DNA from: a virus
DNA: 44,101 bases
IMG/VR virus record: IMGVR_UViG_3300050821_003083
Location: 1-44,101 of that record
Reading direction: 5' to 3' (one strand)
Part shown: piece after piece, positions 21,656-42,000 of the stretch
How positions within the stretch are numbered: the stretch's first letter is position 1
Layout of the letters: each line of letters begins with the position of its first letter
Program-made: the position numbers and the translations under genes
Notes under the pieces: model-generated
Told to the model about the DNA's origin: nothing
What the model saw: only the letters and a program-made list of their open reading frames with translations
The model's database searches: none

Positions 21656-21987
21656 ATAACACTCCGCCCGCGTAGCGCCATGACAATGCGGGCCAAAGAT
21701 CTGCACCTGCGAGCCAAGTGTGCGGAGGGGTGCGGGATTTCGATGCTGGGGCCGCAGGCATTTGCTTAGGGCGATGTGCGGGAGATTTCGGCTTAAGCCC
21801 TTGTTTTCTCTCGATTGTCAGCTTTAGCGTTTAAATCCGCAGCGCAAATTGCTCCCAATGAAAACAGCCACTTAACGACACAAAATCCCGCACGTAATTT
21901 GGTGCGGGATTTTTATTTCTCGCTCCTGTCATGCCGAACAGCTACAGTCGAGCATTGTTCGAACCGCTTCGACCAGGGGTCCCCACC
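21656..21987. other. Intergenic regulatory stretch with GTGCGGGATTT repeats
   Basis: 332 nt with no convincing gene, separating a leftward mini-gene operon from the rightward PEP-CTERM gene. It holds GTGCGGGATTT at 21730, GTGCGGGAGATTT at 21776, and an inverted pair within the terminator-like hairpin at 21882-21913. The stretch from about 21790 to 21880 is visibly more AT-rich than its surroundings, so divergent promoters are likely here, but I cannot define a clean -35/-10 pair. Confidence 0.5.
21882..21913. terminator. 12-bp hairpin terminator
   Basis: AAAATCCCGCAC (21882-21893) pairs perfectly with GTGCGGGATTTT (21902-21913) around an 8-nt loop, followed by TATTT. The A run and T run flank both arms, so it could terminate in either direction. 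It stands just upstream of the PEP-CTERM gene and would insulate it from leftward and rightward read-through. Confidence 0.75.
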
Positions 21988-22560
21988 ATGAAAGCCATCC
22001 TTCTCGCGGCCGGGCTCGCGCTCGCCGCCTCGCCTGCCATCGCCGCCACCCAGATCACCGTCGAGGACATCGGCGCCGTCCTCAACCAATCGCTCGCGCT
22101 CCCGGCCGAGGACACGCCCGGCTCGGGCATCGGGTTCGAACAGTTTTTCGAGTTCACGCTGCCGGTCAAGGAAACCGTCACGCTGTCGGTGAGCGACAGT
22201 GCGACCGGCGCGCAGCGGATCGTCGGCGGCGTACTGTCGCTCAACACCTTCACCTCGACCGCGCCCGTGTCGCCGTTCCAGCCGCTCGGCGCGCTGATCG
22301 AAAGCTCGGCGCTCAACAACGTGATCGGCGGCCAGGAGGGGACTGTGACGCCCGACGCGCTCGGGGCCGGGGCGTACTTCGCGGAGGTGAGCGGCGCCAG
22401 CGGGCTCGCCCCGATCCACATCGCCATTGACGGCACGGTCACCGCGACGGCGGCGGTGCCTGAGCCGTCGACCTGGGCAATGCTGCTCGTCGGCTTTATT
22501 GGCTTGGCGTGGGGGAGCCTGACCCGTCGCCGGGTTCGCGAGCTTCATGCTGCTGCCTGA
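21988..22560 (+). CDS. PEP-CTERM cell-surface protein
   Basis: A 190-residue secreted protein. Residues 1-20 (MKAILLAAGLALAASPAIAA) are a clear Sec signal peptide. The mature part is beta-rich and begins its conserved zone with FEQFFEFTLPV, resembling the FxDxF group. The C-terminus has the complete tripartite sorting signal: VPEPSTW (PEP at 158-160), a hydrophobic helix (163-178) and RRR (180-182). Such proteins are processed by a host exosortase and placed on the surface or in the exopolysaccharide matrix; no exosortase is encoded here. It is a single rightward gene among leftward ones with a terminator upstream, which is the layout of a phage moron. ATG 21988 was chosen because the signal peptide starts there. 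Confidence 0.85.
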   Translation: MKAILLAAGLALAASPAIAATQITVEDIGAVLNQSLALPAEDTPGSGIGFEQFFEFTLPVKETVTLSVSDSATGAQRIVGGVLSLNTFTSTAPVSPFQPLGALIESSALNNVIGGQEGTVTPDALGAGAYFAEVSGASGLAPIHIAIDGTVTATAAVPEPSTWAMLLVGFIGLAWGSLTRRRVRELHAAA

Positions 22561-22843
22561 GCCTCTCCAGCATGCGCTTGTGCGCGGCCCATAGATCGGG
22601 GCCGCGCGAGACGCAGATCGCCGCCAGGGCGGCTTGATGCAGTTGGTCTGGACCGATGCGCAGCATCGCGCTGGTGATGCGCTCGATCTCGTCCATGATC
22701 CTCGCCGGATTGATGCGCGCCTGGGTGACGACCTCGTTGCAGGCGTCGCAGCAGCGCCCCTTCTGCGCGAGCGGGGCCGGGTTGTTGCCGACGCGCTCGT
22801 AGGGCAGGCCGCAGAGGCAGCAGTTATCAGGCTTCTTGGTCAT
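22496..22843 (-). CDS. Small zinc-binding phage protein
   Basis: 115 residues. The N-terminal region has CCLCGLPYE and then GRCCDACNEVV, two Cys pairs that should form a zinc knuckle. The rest is helical and charged. GGGAG lies upstream of ATG 22843. Its 3' end overlaps the convergent PEP-CTERM gene by about 65 nt. It is the last gene of the leftward integrase/recombination operon. The function is unknown. Confidence 0.7.
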   Translation of the reverse strand: MTKKPDNCCLCGLPYERVGNNPAPLAQKGRCCDACNEVVTQARINPARIMDEIERITSAMLRIGPDQLHQAALAAICVSRGPDLWAAHKRMLERLRQQHEAREPGDGSGSPTPSQ

Positions 22844-26126: not shown

Positions 26127-26641
26127 GGGGTTCTCCGTTCCATGAGCCGCGCCCCTTGCCAGCATTGCCACGCCGGGCCTGACCTTTCCCGGCCGAGCCA
26201 CGCCAGCATTGCCCGGCCGCGCACAGCGGCGCCTCGCCAGGACAGGCTTCGCCCGTCCCGGCCTCGCCTCGCCAGCCGCGCCCCGCCGCGCCCCGCCGAG
26301 CCGTGCCCCGCCTTGCCTGGACCTGCCAGCCCAGCCGTGCCACGCCCGGCCCAGACGGGCCAAGCCAAGCCTGTGCATGGCCTAGCCTTGCCAGCCTCGA
26401 CAGGCCGCGCCGCGCTTCGCCTTGCCTCGCCTCGACAGACCAAGCCTCGCCTGTCCCGGCCTCGCCTAGCCACGCCAGCCCAGCCAAGCCATGCCAGCCG
26501 AGCCACGCCAAGCCGTGCCCGTCCCGGCCAGGCCTCGCCTGGACAAGCCGTGCCAAGCCCTTCCAGCCGCGCAGAGCCGAGCCGGGCCATGCCGGGCCTA
26601 GACAGGCCTCGCTTTGCCAAGCTCGCCTCATGGGCGAGCTT
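26115..26641. repeat. Composite element 6: giant (GCCNN)n array between two hairpins
   Basis: A 14-bp hairpin (26115-26128 with 26140-26153) opens the element. From about 26156 to 26618 the sequence reads as roughly 93 pentamers centred on GCC, with only occasional 1-nt register slips. It closes with AAGCTCGCC/GGCGAGCTT (26619-26641), whose 5-nt loop contains the stop codon of the upstream leftward gene. Open frames through it encode only Arg/Ala/Gly/Leu pentapeptide repeats, the expected by-product of a 5-nt period, and are not genes. The GCC strand is antisense to the flanking genes. Confidence 0.85.
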
Positions 26642-28013: not shown

Positions 28014-28637
28014 TCACGCCGCCATTGCGTAGCGGCGTGCGAGCTGTTCGACCTTCCGGTCAACCTCCTTGATGAACGTCGAGATCTCGCGCTCCAGCTC
28101 GGCGATGAGCGTTTGGTCGCGCGGCACGCGCTTGACGAAGAGCTGCATCGCGCGCGGGAAGTCGGGATTGAAGCTTACGAAGTCGCACCAATCGCGGGCG
28201 GTGCAACCAAGTTGCCACATCATTTGAACGAGGTAGTCGTTGCTGATCGTCTCGTTGATCAGCAACTCGCCATGAGCCTTCTTTTCAGGGCATTTTAGCT
28301 CTACCAAGCCCTTCGCTCCGACAAATCCGTCGGGCGAGCAATGCGCGCCCTTGATTGTGGGATGCGGTACGATGCCCACTTCCAAGACCTCGACGCCCTT
28401 GATGATCGAGTACGTCAGGCGCCCGTCTGGCTCGCGCTCGGTCCCCTGGTTCATGGCGAAGCTCTTCGGGATCTCGAACGGCACGCCGGTCACGCGCTCG
28501 ATGACCTTCTCCCACAGGAGGCTCTCGCGATCCGCCGAATAGCCGCCCGACTTGATGCGCCTCACGACGCGCGGCGCGTCGGAAGCGCCAACCGAACCGC
28601 AGCGCGCTTGGCGCCACTCGTCAGTTCCTTGGAGCAT
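28014..28637 (-). CDS. YqaJ-type viral exonuclease
   Basis: A 207-residue PD-(D/E)XK nuclease of the YqaJ/lambda-exonuclease type. GSVGASDAPRVV near the start is followed by NQGTEREPDGRLTY, SPDG (101-104, with the metal-binding Asp 103), LVELKCP (Glu 113, Lys 115) and YLVQMMWQLG. It degrades one strand from a double-strand end and feeds the ERF annealing protein encoded just upstream (16-nt overlap). Together they form a two-component recombination system that can also circularise or concatemerise phage DNA. Confidence 0.88.
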   Translation of the reverse strand: MLQGTDEWRQARCGSVGASDAPRVVRRIKSGGYSADRESLLWEKVIERVTGVPFEIPKSFAMNQGTEREPDGRLTYSIIKGVEVLEVGIVPHPTIKGAHCSPDGFVGAKGLVELKCPEKKAHGELLINETISNDYLVQMMWQLGCTARDWCDFVSFNPDFPRAMQLFVKRVPRDQTLIAELEREISTFIKEVDRKVEQLARRYAMAA

Positions 28638-29436
28638 TGTCGTTCCCTGGCTTGCGCCTCTGTTCTGCCTTGGCGAGGTCGAGGACCTCCTTCGCGCGCG
28701 TCCACTGGTCGATGTTCATGTCGTCGATGTCGTCGACGCCGACGAGCCTGAGCAGCGTCGCCTCGCTGCGGCCGGTGTCGGTGATGAGCATGCGCAGCGT
28801 GGTGGCTTGCTCAGGGGTGATCCTGGGCGAGGTCCCGCCCGCGCCGTCGTCGTCGCGACCGGCGGCGAGGCCCAGCGCCTGCTTGAGCGTGGCGCGCTGC
28901 ATGAAGGTGATGGTCGAGGTGATCGCTTGGTTCGCGCTCTTCTGGCCGCTTGTGTCCTCGACGCCGTCCTGGGGGAACTCTTCGCTGTAGCCGTCGGCGT
29001 GGCTCAAGATGCACGTGACGGTGATCTTGGCGCCGTTCTGCGTCACGCGATGGGAGTAGCTCAAGCCGTGCTTGGCGAGGATCGGATCGACGACCTGAGT
29101 GATGTCGAACAGGTCCTCGTACTTGTACTTGGTGCGCCCGCGCCCATCCTTGTGGGCGTAGTCGACGAGGTGCGTCTTGAGGATCGGCGGCAGCTCGCCC
29201 TTCGCCTTGGCCTTCGCATCGAGGTAGGCGCGCTTGGCGGCGCGGTCCTCTTCGTCGTGCCGCGCCTTGAGCAGCCGGTCGAACACGTCAAGGTTGAGGT
29301 TGGGGTTGGTGGCGAGCCGCTCGATCACCGCGAGCAGGCCGCCGCCCTCAGAAGCCAAAGGGGGCAGAGGCTCCGAGGGCGGCGCAGCGGCCAACTGGTA
29401 AGGGACCTCGGCCGCTGGCTGGGTAGTATCGCTCAT
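28621..29436 (-). CDS. ERF-family single-strand annealing protein
   Basis: A 271-residue protein. The ERF domain covers residues about 35-190, including AYLDAKAKAKGELPPILKTH, YKYEDLFDITQVVDPILAKHGLSYSH, a TVTCILSHADGYSEEF strand and the Gln/Ala-rich NQAITSTITFMQRATLKQALGLA motif. The C-terminus is acidic and Pro/Asn-rich. It pairs complementary single strands made by the neighbouring exonuclease. ATG 29436 is preferred because AGGA lies at a proper distance; ATG 29445, three codons upstream, is the alternative. It is the first gene of the leftward operon facing the operator cluster. Confidence 0.9.
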   Translation of the reverse strand: MSDTTQPAAEVPYQLAAAPPSEPLPPLASEGGGLLAVIERLATNPNLNLDVFDRLLKARHDEEDRAAKRAYLDAKAKAKGELPPILKTHLVDYAHKDGRGRTKYKYEDLFDITQVVDPILAKHGLSYSHRVTQNGAKITVTCILSHADGYSEEFPQDGVEDTSGQKSANQAITSTITFMQRATLKQALGLAAGRDDDGAGGTSPRITPEQATTLRMLITDTGRSEATLLRLVGVDDIDDMNIDQWTRAKEVLDLAKAEQRRKPGNDNAPRN

Positions 29437-29686
29437 CTGATCCATCCTGCAAAGACCATAGGTTGTCCCCGCGCCATCAAGCCGTCAACGTTTAACAGGC
29501 CCTTTCTCCACAAGTATTCGCACGATGTGTTAAACGTTTAACAGGTTGTTAGACGTTTAACATGGTTGTTAGACGTCTAACACCTTGCAGTGTGCGTATG
29601 ATGTTGGCCCAAAAGCATAACGTTACCTTGTGGACGGCGCGAATAGTGGCTTGACGAAAGAATAGGCCAGGCGCAATTCTACTCCG
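29437..29686. promoter_or_regulatory. Divergent control region
   Basis: 250 nt between the leftward recombination operon and the rightward Xre gene. It holds four TGTTARACGTYTAACA-type sites. On the minus strand TTGACG overlaps the outermost site (29482-29497), and on the + strand TTGACG at 29651-29656 with AATTCT 18 bases later could serve the Xre gene. The promoters are tentative; the operators are clear. Confidence 0.6.
29482..29582. promoter_or_regulatory. Four-site palindromic operator cluster
   Basis: TGTTAAACGTTTAACA (29528-29543), TGTTAGACGTTTAACA (29547-29562) and TGTTAGACGTCTAACA (29567-29582) are spaced 19 and 20 bp apart, centre to centre, close to two helical turns. A half-degenerate copy (CCGTCAACGTTTAACA) lies at 29482-29497. 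Two are perfect 16-bp palindromes, as expected for a dimeric repressor. The same sites recur at 38.3-38.8 kb. Confidence 0.8.
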
Positions 29687-37005: not shown

Positions 37006-37022
37006 TCCCGCACCGTGCGGGA
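37006..37022. promoter_or_regulatory. 17-bp palindrome TCCCGCAC-C-GTGCGGGA
   Basis: A perfect inverted repeat with a single central base. Its arms repeat the CCCGCAC/GTGCGGG core seen at 21730, 21776 and in the hairpin at 21882-21913, so a common DNA-binding protein is possible. Confidence 0.5.
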
Positions 37023-41262: not shown

Positions 41263-41471
41263 GTGAGGAGCCCACCTTCGTCTGCAAGGATTGCGGAGCG
41301 AACGTCTATGACGCGTTCGGCGACGTGCGCGAGCGTTGCTATCCATGCCAGTGGGTCGCCGACATTCCCGACGACGCCGAACGCGCGAAGGTCCGCGCAT
41401 GGCTGATCGAGGTAGGAGCAATCGATGATGTTGGCCCCACGCCATGCGTATCGGTTGTCACAACCGCGTGA
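41259..41471 (+). CDS. Small zinc-ribbon protein
   Basis: 70 residues with CKDCGANVYD and RCYPCQWVADIPDD, two CxxC pairs, and a helical RAKVRAWLIEVGAIDDV C-terminal part. It resembles small zinc proteins found beside phage packaging genes. The function is unknown. It is coupled to its neighbour by a 4-nt overlap. Confidence 0.65.
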   Translation: MSEEPTFVCKDCGANVYDAFGDVRERCYPCQWVADIPDDAERAKVRAWLIEVGAIDDVGPTPCVSVVTTA

Positions 41472-41505
41472 TAAGCCCGCAGGCCTCCACCGGAGGACCC
41501 CCCAA

Positions 41506-42000
41506 ATGGCACGCGCTCAAATTGCTTTGATCATCCCGCTCGGCGATGCGCCGGGCCATATCCCCGGCCTGCACCCAGACCAAGGCCTGCCCGGCGGCGG
41601 CTATTACCCTGACCAGGGCCTGCCCGGCGGCGGCGAATATCCCGATCAGGGCCTGCCCGGCTCGCCCGCCTACCCCGATCAAGGGCTGCCAGGACGCCCA
41701 CCGTACGTCAGCAATCGGCCCCCAGGCTCTTGGGGCCGCCCCGAGTACCCAAGCCACGGCCCGGTGCGCCCAGGCCGCCCCGTCGATCCGAGCTGGGGCA
41801 TCGAGGAAGGCGGCCCCGCCCGCCCCGATCAGGGCCTGCCCCCAGGCCCGGCGCACCCGTGGGTGCCGCCCGCAGGCGAGGAGCTGCCGCCGCCGCCCGC
41901 CGACATCGCCGATCAGGTCGTGTTGCAGATCTGGAACCCCAACACGCAGACCTGGACGGTCAAGACCGCGCCCCCGGTCCACCCGGCCCCGCACGGCTGA
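41506..42000 (+). CDS. Repeat protein with PDQGLPG units
   Basis: 164 residues. Five or more PDQGLPG/PDQGLPP units separated by Gly/Tyr or Ser/Pro spacers fill residues 24-120, followed by Pro-rich linkers and a C-terminal VVLQIWNPNTQTWTVKT strand pair. The repeats look elastomeric and extended. GGAGG precedes ATG 41506. It stands immediately before the large terminase; the position may hint at a virion role, but the function is unknown. Confidence 0.65.
   Translation: MARAQIALIIPLGDAPGHIPGLHPDQGLPGGGYYPDQGLPGGGEYPDQGLPGSPAYPDQGLPGRPPYVSNRPPGSWGRPEYPSHGPVRPGRPVDPSWGIEEGGPARPDQGLPPGPAHPWVPPAGEELPPPPADIADQVVLQIWNPNTQTWTVKTAPPVHPAPHG

Follow-up and report, generated by a model that had tools for sequence, protein, structure and literature searches.

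A phage-encoded PEP-CTERM gene whose mature domain appears to be exchanged between phages

We propose that the gene at positions 21988 to 22560 of the window (the whole stretch of DNA analysed here, which is an entire IMG/VR record of 44.1 kb) is one copy of a phage-borne cassette that displays a changeable payload, its mature domain, on the host surface by means of the host's exosortase. Taken as a whole, this reading is, on balance, probable. Sequence comparison gives good support to display and to payload exchange, and the architecture of the gene, its spread among phages, the pattern of exchange and the purifying selection are read from it directly; exosortase processing of the window protein is an inference, and likely. 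Superinfection exclusion, that is, action against competing phages, is put forward tentatively as the likeliest role. The first-pass annotation had described a PEP-CTERM surface protein encoded by a phage, and it missed that the mature domain appears to be swapped as a unit between the signal peptide and the PEP motif.

The gene and its surroundings

The following features are referred to in the text:
21882..21913, no strand: hairpin TCCCGCAC/GTGCGGGA, terminator-like, upstream of the PEP-CTERM gene; kept in related phages with other payloads
21914..21987, +: upstream region; a conserved GGG is the putative ribosome-binding site, and a promoter is presumed
21988..22560, +: gene for a PEP-CTERM surface-display protein of 190 aa, payload family F1 (ORF, codon periodicity, Pfam and NCBIfam PEP-CTERM matches, 26-row alignment)
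21988..22047, +: signal peptide, residues 1-20, with hydrophobic core and AxA site; cleavage after AIAA predicted by eye; tracks the phage backbone, not the payload
22048..22455, +: mature payload domain F1, a predicted PPC-like beta-sandwich (A2 alignment, AlphaFold model, payload dN/dS)
22456..22482, +: VPEPSTWAM sorting motif, the putative right-hand breakpoint of payload exchange, where the homology of swapped alleles restarts
22483..22557, +: transmembrane helix and basic cytoplasmic tail (hydropathy, charge, PEP-CTERM profiles)
22496..22843, −: small gene that runs convergently and shares 65 nt with the 3' end of the PEP-CTERM gene; one open frame, GC3 0.84, homologue in contig L002
23354..24478, −: tyrosine integrase (PF00589 E=1e-11, phrog_1 E=1e-34)
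28014..29445, −: RecE-like exonuclease and Erf-like annealing protein (profile matches), candidate drivers of homologous payload exchange

The reading frame is intact, with an ATG at 21988, 190 codons and a TGA, and its codon-position GC (0.66/0.54/0.88) is coding-like. An alternative, longer reading begins at 21931, but the start at 21988 is favoured because it yields the signal peptide and because of the GGG conserved upstream in relatives. The signal peptide, MKAILLAAGLALAASPAIAA, has a lysine at residue 2, a core hydropathy of 2.15 and, by inspection, an AIA cleavage-like site, while the C-terminus runs from VPEPSTWAM through LLVGFIGLAWGSL to TRRR (charge +3) and is modelled by AlphaFold as a helix from residue 160 onward. 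The protein scores 24.1 bits against Pfam PEP-CTERM PF07589 (gathering score 20.7), 23.0 bits against TIGR02595 (cutoff 16) and 31.8 bits (E=9e-8) against NF035944, the PEPxxWA-CTERM family, slightly below the cutoff of 35; PHROGs holds no family for it. The frame, the PF07589 and TIGR02595 matches and the inspected tail thus bear out the first-pass annotation on the signal peptide and the sorting signal, and its placing of the gene inside a phage genome near an integrase also holds, as the window carries an SU10 portal (E=2e-145) and an SU10 major capsid protein (E=3e-77), both profile matches, together with a terminase, an N-acetylmuramidase, an ERF annealing protein and the tyrosine integrase.

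As had also been described, in the window backbone the gene is solitary on its strand, between the hairpin at 21882-21913 and a convergent integrase block. Relatives have kept this hairpin, in contig L063 by way of a compensatory change, while the scan for terminator-like sites was no better than chance (2 found vs. 2.1 in shuffles). No sigma-70 consensus was found upstream of the gene. Four GTGCGGGA half-sites lie at 21730-21909, within 180 nt upstream of it, and another pair lies at 37006-37022; the window holds 7 copies of GTGCGGGA vs. 2.7 expected, a number reached by 3 of 100 shuffles. Elsewhere in the window there are a repetitive PDQGLPG-rich frame (41425-42000) and imperfect GC-rich repeats (26200-26600; an 87-nt unit present six times, at 61-71%), the latter in a region with no convincing gene.

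Relatives in viruses and bacteria

The first-pass annotation had suggested a search for homologues in phages and bacteria, and both contain them. A tblastn scan of viral contigs, all of metagenomic origin, detected clear F1 relatives in at least 35 of them, at 54-92% identity, and in an alignment of 26 sequences, which are 52-93% identical to the window protein, 47 columns are invariant, including most of the sorting motif. The concern that the gene might be decayed in related phages is contradicted by these relatives, which are open, undecayed frames except for L034, with a run-on tail, and L220, with a replaced one. In L034 (7944-8648), the tail of this F1 gene of a type-D phage extends about 50 residues beyond the basic cluster, probably because of a lost stop or a frameshift. 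No relatives were found by DNA or protein among 50,697 phage records, or by protein among 72,556 plasmid records, and, as isolated phages include none, isolates yield no host.

A profile search with the mature domain in 385 alphaproteobacterial genomes, which are a sample, gave one match. This bacterial relative (41% identity), located in a Rhizobiales bin, directly adjoins the exosortase gene of that genome, and its further neighbours were recognised by eye as sugar transferase and EpsI-like genes. A PEPSTWAM-pattern scan of genome contigs gave at least one bacterial homologue among the matches listed. A search by portal for a close prophage covered 397 genomes from the order to which Bradyrhizobium belongs and reached only 26-32% identity. 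No exosortase (PF09721) was found in 30 phage records, so processing would have to rely on the host enzyme, in agreement with the dependence claimed earlier. The gene is a member of a phage family and not a lone captured host gene; in the openly accessible literature, we found no description of phage-encoded PEP-CTERM proteins.

Exchange of the payload between fixed ends

As judged from sequence comparison, the mature domain appears to be exchangeable: at least three mature domains without detectable similarity occupy one locus in phages with closely related flanks. The weaker matches of the viral scan are other phage PEP-CTERM proteins, mainly of families F2 (52-98% identity within the family) and F3 (43-86%). 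The mature domains of F1, F2 and F3 have no profile relation to one another; F1 and F2 both align weakly to NF038126 along their length. Further mature domains were seen on viral contigs, namely F4 (L039/L040), F6 (L050) and F5 (L062), the last of them at a type-D locus.

Several substitutions can be followed in related genomes. For instance, L038 carries F3 where the window carries F1, while its integrase is 86% identical and many other genes are about 70-90% identical to those of the window or its closest relatives. In the same way, L041, L043 and L046 carry F2 where the record G028 carries F1, with flanking proteins that are mostly about 90-99% identical, and L066 and L072 (F2) and L073 (F3) differ from G027 or G029 (F1). 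Backbone A even occurs within one sample (3300050821) both with F1 (L008) and with F3 (L038, L063).

The remaining parts of the cassette, that is, the promoter region, the signal peptide and the PEP tail, seem from the same comparisons to stay with the backbone. In pairs with different payloads, similarity was 0.47 with a shared backbone vs. 0.41 without for tails and 0.55 vs. 0.40 for signal peptides (p=2e-4 in both cases; 51 genes, permutation within families), although the composition bias of signal peptides and membrane helices inflates such values and is offset only partly by the permutation test and the upstream DNA. Payloads of the same family had an identity of 0.76 with a shared backbone and 0.72 without. 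At the DNA level, the window and L038 agree at 0.85 over the 150 nt upstream, 0.70 in the signal peptide, 0.65 in the payload (0.64 when shuffled) and 0.77 in the tail; for the window and L012, which has the same payload in another backbone, the values are 0.54 (vs. 0.50) upstream and 0.77 in the payload.

The edges of the homology were located by BLASTN in 65 pairs with different payloads and a shared backbone. The left edge falls inside the signal peptide or just ahead of it, at a median of 18 nt before the start of the mature domain and never more than 11 nt past that start, while the right edge lies at a median of 2 nt after the start of the PEP motif (IQR 0-3). An internal payload match was observed in 0 of the 65 pairs. 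As the constraint on the motif helps to fix the right-hand edge, the exact point of recombination could lie in the helix that follows.

Distribution among backbones

The backbones that carry the gene are unrelated, with terminases of the phrog_2, phrog_9 and phrog_38 types and a GC content from 0.43 to 0.67, and the locus of the gene differs among backbones and is constant within each:
Backbone A: window-like podoviruses; gene beside the integrase
Backbone B: other SU10-like phages; gene near portal and terminase
Backbone C: gene between a muramidase or endolysin and a phrog_38-type terminase
Backbone D: gene in the head operon, between the portal and major capsid genes
Backbone E: gene upstream of a phrog_9-type terminase
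Backbone F: phages of 75-77 kb, 43-49% GC
Backbone G: a 43-kb phage, with a polymerase-like gene recognised by eye

Several type-B phages have low-complexity frames (cluster c4) arrayed in tandem with the PEP-CTERM gene. An integrase of the tyrosine or serine type could be recognised among the records of backbones A, B, C and E; none was seen in the 40-77 kb records G019, G023, G027, G028 and G029, a comparison to which the incompleteness of records sets a limit. Given these records and the loci in the head operon and between lysis and terminase genes, the product is probably also made in lytic infection, and restricting its role to lysogeny seems too narrow a view.

The gene is also missing from some relatives at the same locus, and is thus not essential. 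In a census of 14 type-D contigs, which includes some near duplicates and contigs already seen, the motif revealed a PEP-CTERM gene in 10 (five F1, four F2 and one F5). At the same locus, the motif pattern missed an F1 gene with PEISTWAM in L221, L220 carries an F2 payload with a non-PEP tail, and in L218 and L222 no PEP-CTERM gene was found. At the type-A locus, the gene was present in 4 of 9 informative contigs (L230, L231, L234 and L237) and absent from L232, L235 and L238, where the interval was read, and from L233 and L236 by motif and candidate scan. The PEP-CTERM gene is accessory, as expected of a competition factor. Presence and absence among close relatives at one locus is what a moron would show, and the gene is solitary in the window backbone, so that this part of the earlier description stands; its picture of a gene acting only in lysogens was too narrow, given the late-operon loci and the integrase-less records of other backbones.

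The tail of L220 (about 1340-1998) deserves a separate mention. In this type-D relative, the PEP-CTERM tail behind the F2 payload is replaced by VPGPVVGAGLPGVIVGCGFLVLLAMTRRK, and, as the payload is kept with a VPGPVVGAGLPG tail instead of the PEP motif, the tail is not always of the PEP type. This tail may be another sorting signal attached to an unchanged payload; it had no NCBIfam match, and a search for the VPGPVVGAGLPG tail in 13 Bradyrhizobium genomes gave nothing significant. In another record, G006 (L161-L163; 52,042 bases), two copies of the gene were considered as a duplication, which was rejected: the ends repeat at 82-91% and there is an exact 127-nt join, so this record joins two related phage genomes.

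Alternative explanations

After superinfection exclusion, the next choice is a rather unlikely one, in which the displayed domain would alter, in infected cells or lysogens, aggregation or exopolysaccharide attachment, with no action on other phages. Host PEP-CTERM proteins have been linked to floc formation and exopolysaccharide (PMC9850573, PMC1569441), and the model of F1 resembles PPC domains, among them collagen-binding domains. This AlphaFold model (mean pLDDT 66) contains a beta-sandwich that is most similar to collagenase collagen-binding and PPC domains, with Z 10.2-10.4 (rmsd 2.2-2.7, 96-105 residues aligned), where the Z of 10.2 spans a full 96-residue target and Z 7-8 is typical of models without a clear match. 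Foldseek gave nothing below E 0.001 for it against the PDB, Pfam up to E 0.1 returned PEP-CTERM alone, with no PPC sequence match for the window protein, and the F2 model reaches background-level Z values (best 8.2) to various beta-sandwiches. From the modelled likeness of F1, no function follows, as similarity of fold alone demonstrates none, and an adhesive role offers no obvious reason why unrelated domains should replace one another repeatedly at a single locus.

It has to be considered as well whether the protein is a decoy, that is, a competing substrate that floods the host exosortase and stops the display of host PEP-CTERM proteins or exopolysaccharide, with a mature domain that is only filler. 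The strong conservation of the sorting motif, the lack of an exosortase in the phages and the location of the nearest bacterial homologue in an exosortase locus would all be expected of such a substrate. Nevertheless, the payload is under purifying selection, with a dN/dS of 0.20-0.31 in the three closest F1 pairs, and it is swapped as an intact domain and not degraded. Were it filler, the mature domain should have drifted more than the membrane helix; the opposite is observed, as the signal peptide and the helix are loose (0.57-0.76). The PEP motif of F1 is constrained as well (pN/pS 0.10), and these values together point to the payload as the functional part and to the motif as required, which counts against a decoy and makes it improbable. 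The selection value of the F2 and F3 motifs is biased, and their conservation is partly a matter of ascertainment, because many members of both families were retrieved through the PEPSTWAM pattern.

A host gene carried as a passenger, with no function for the phage, would account for the accessory presence and absence and for the one bacterial homologue among the matches listed. This is decidedly improbable, as intact relatives are numerous in unrelated phages and a single bacterial genome of the sample has one, as the payload is under purifying selection and as the locus is fixed in each backbone. An accessory lysis function, such as that of an outer-membrane disrupting protein acting with the endolysin, is very improbable: in backbone C the gene does come after the muramidase (in G013 also after a small putative membrane protein) and before the terminase, but it is far from lysis genes in the window and several other backbones, and unrelated payloads substitute for one another. 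A spanin in particular was rejected, as the window protein has a cysteine count of 0, and hence no spanin lipobox, and the position is also against it. Finally, an assembly chimera or misfiled host DNA is scarcely credible, because, in spite of the two genomes joined in G006 through an exact 127-nt overlap, in many independent contigs the gene has collinear flanks made up of portal, capsid, terminase or integrase genes, and the chimera at 21.9-22.6 kb raised in the first-pass annotation is contradicted by L002, where the gene recurs and the sequence is collinear to its left and its right.

Proposed mechanism and significance

Under the preferred reading, a cassette for the display of a changeable payload, the signal peptide would direct export through Sec, and the PEP motif, membrane helix and basic tail would hand the protein to the host exosortase, which would process it towards the outer surface, where the folded mature domain would be the working part. 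These three steps, Sec export, exosortase processing and surface display, are those of the accepted model of PEP-CTERM sorting (PMC1569441). The conserved stretches of DNA on either side of the payload are probably a recombination handle, and homologous recombination at these ends may swap the payload, perhaps aided by the RecE/Erf-type proteins of the phages. As the payload is changeable, the gene occurs in competing phages of the same soil communities and the carriers are both temperate and apparently lytic, superinfection exclusion fits best, with the displayed protein as a surface factor that would block other phages or redirect them.

More broadly, phages of exosortase-bearing soil bacteria might share a common pool of payloads, which would move between unrelated backbones at the DNA of the signal peptide and the PEP motif. 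The sorting signal of the host would then double as address label and recombination handle, and the resulting surface types of infected cells or lysogens could decide which other phages enter; we offer this as a conjecture. The data suggest a previously unrecognised route by which phages alter the surface of infected cells, having adopted the exosortase display route under selection and without carrying the enzyme, and the exact exchange of the mature domain marks the part that is under diversifying exchange. Many substrates of exosortases exist, few of them with an assigned function. Should exclusion prove true, an exosortase-dependent class would be added to phage-phage competition, and a handle on the function of PEP-CTERM proteins would be gained.

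Comparison with known systems

Among the closest known systems are the PEP-CTERM/exosortase (EpsH) proteins of the PEPxxWA-CTERM type (TIGR02595, PF07589, NF035944), which have the same signal peptide, C-terminal PEP motif, helix and basic tail; unlike them, the proteins described here are encoded by phages without an exosortase, and their mature domain is swapped at a fixed phage locus. The window protein also aligns to the FxDxF family of PEP-CTERM proteins (NF038126) over 5-182 with 48.0 bits, narrowly missing the cutoff of 50, while L221 reaches 52.2 bits and the bacterial relative (L080) 58.9 bits, but the bacterial protein is far more distant from the phage members than these are from one another. 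With PPC and collagenase collagen-binding domains, the phage protein may share a predicted beta-sandwich fold; it differs in having no sequence match and in being a single beta-sandwich fused to a membrane tail.

Two surface proteins outside the exosortase system are also comparable. SasX of staphylococci, a surface protein of the LPXTG kind, is encoded by a prophage and relies on a host transpeptidase for its anchoring; it uses sortase and LPXTG where the phage cassette would use exosortase, and we know of no payload exchange in it. CwpV of Clostridioides difficile is exposed on the cell surface, has domains of five interchangeable types and blocks phages after adsorption (PMC4737114), which makes it a precedent for the proposed exclusion role. 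Although CwpV is encoded by the host, is anchored to a Gram-positive wall and contains tandem repeats, and no sequence relation is claimed, it resembles the phage cassette in combining fixed parts for export and anchoring with interchangeable C-terminal domains.
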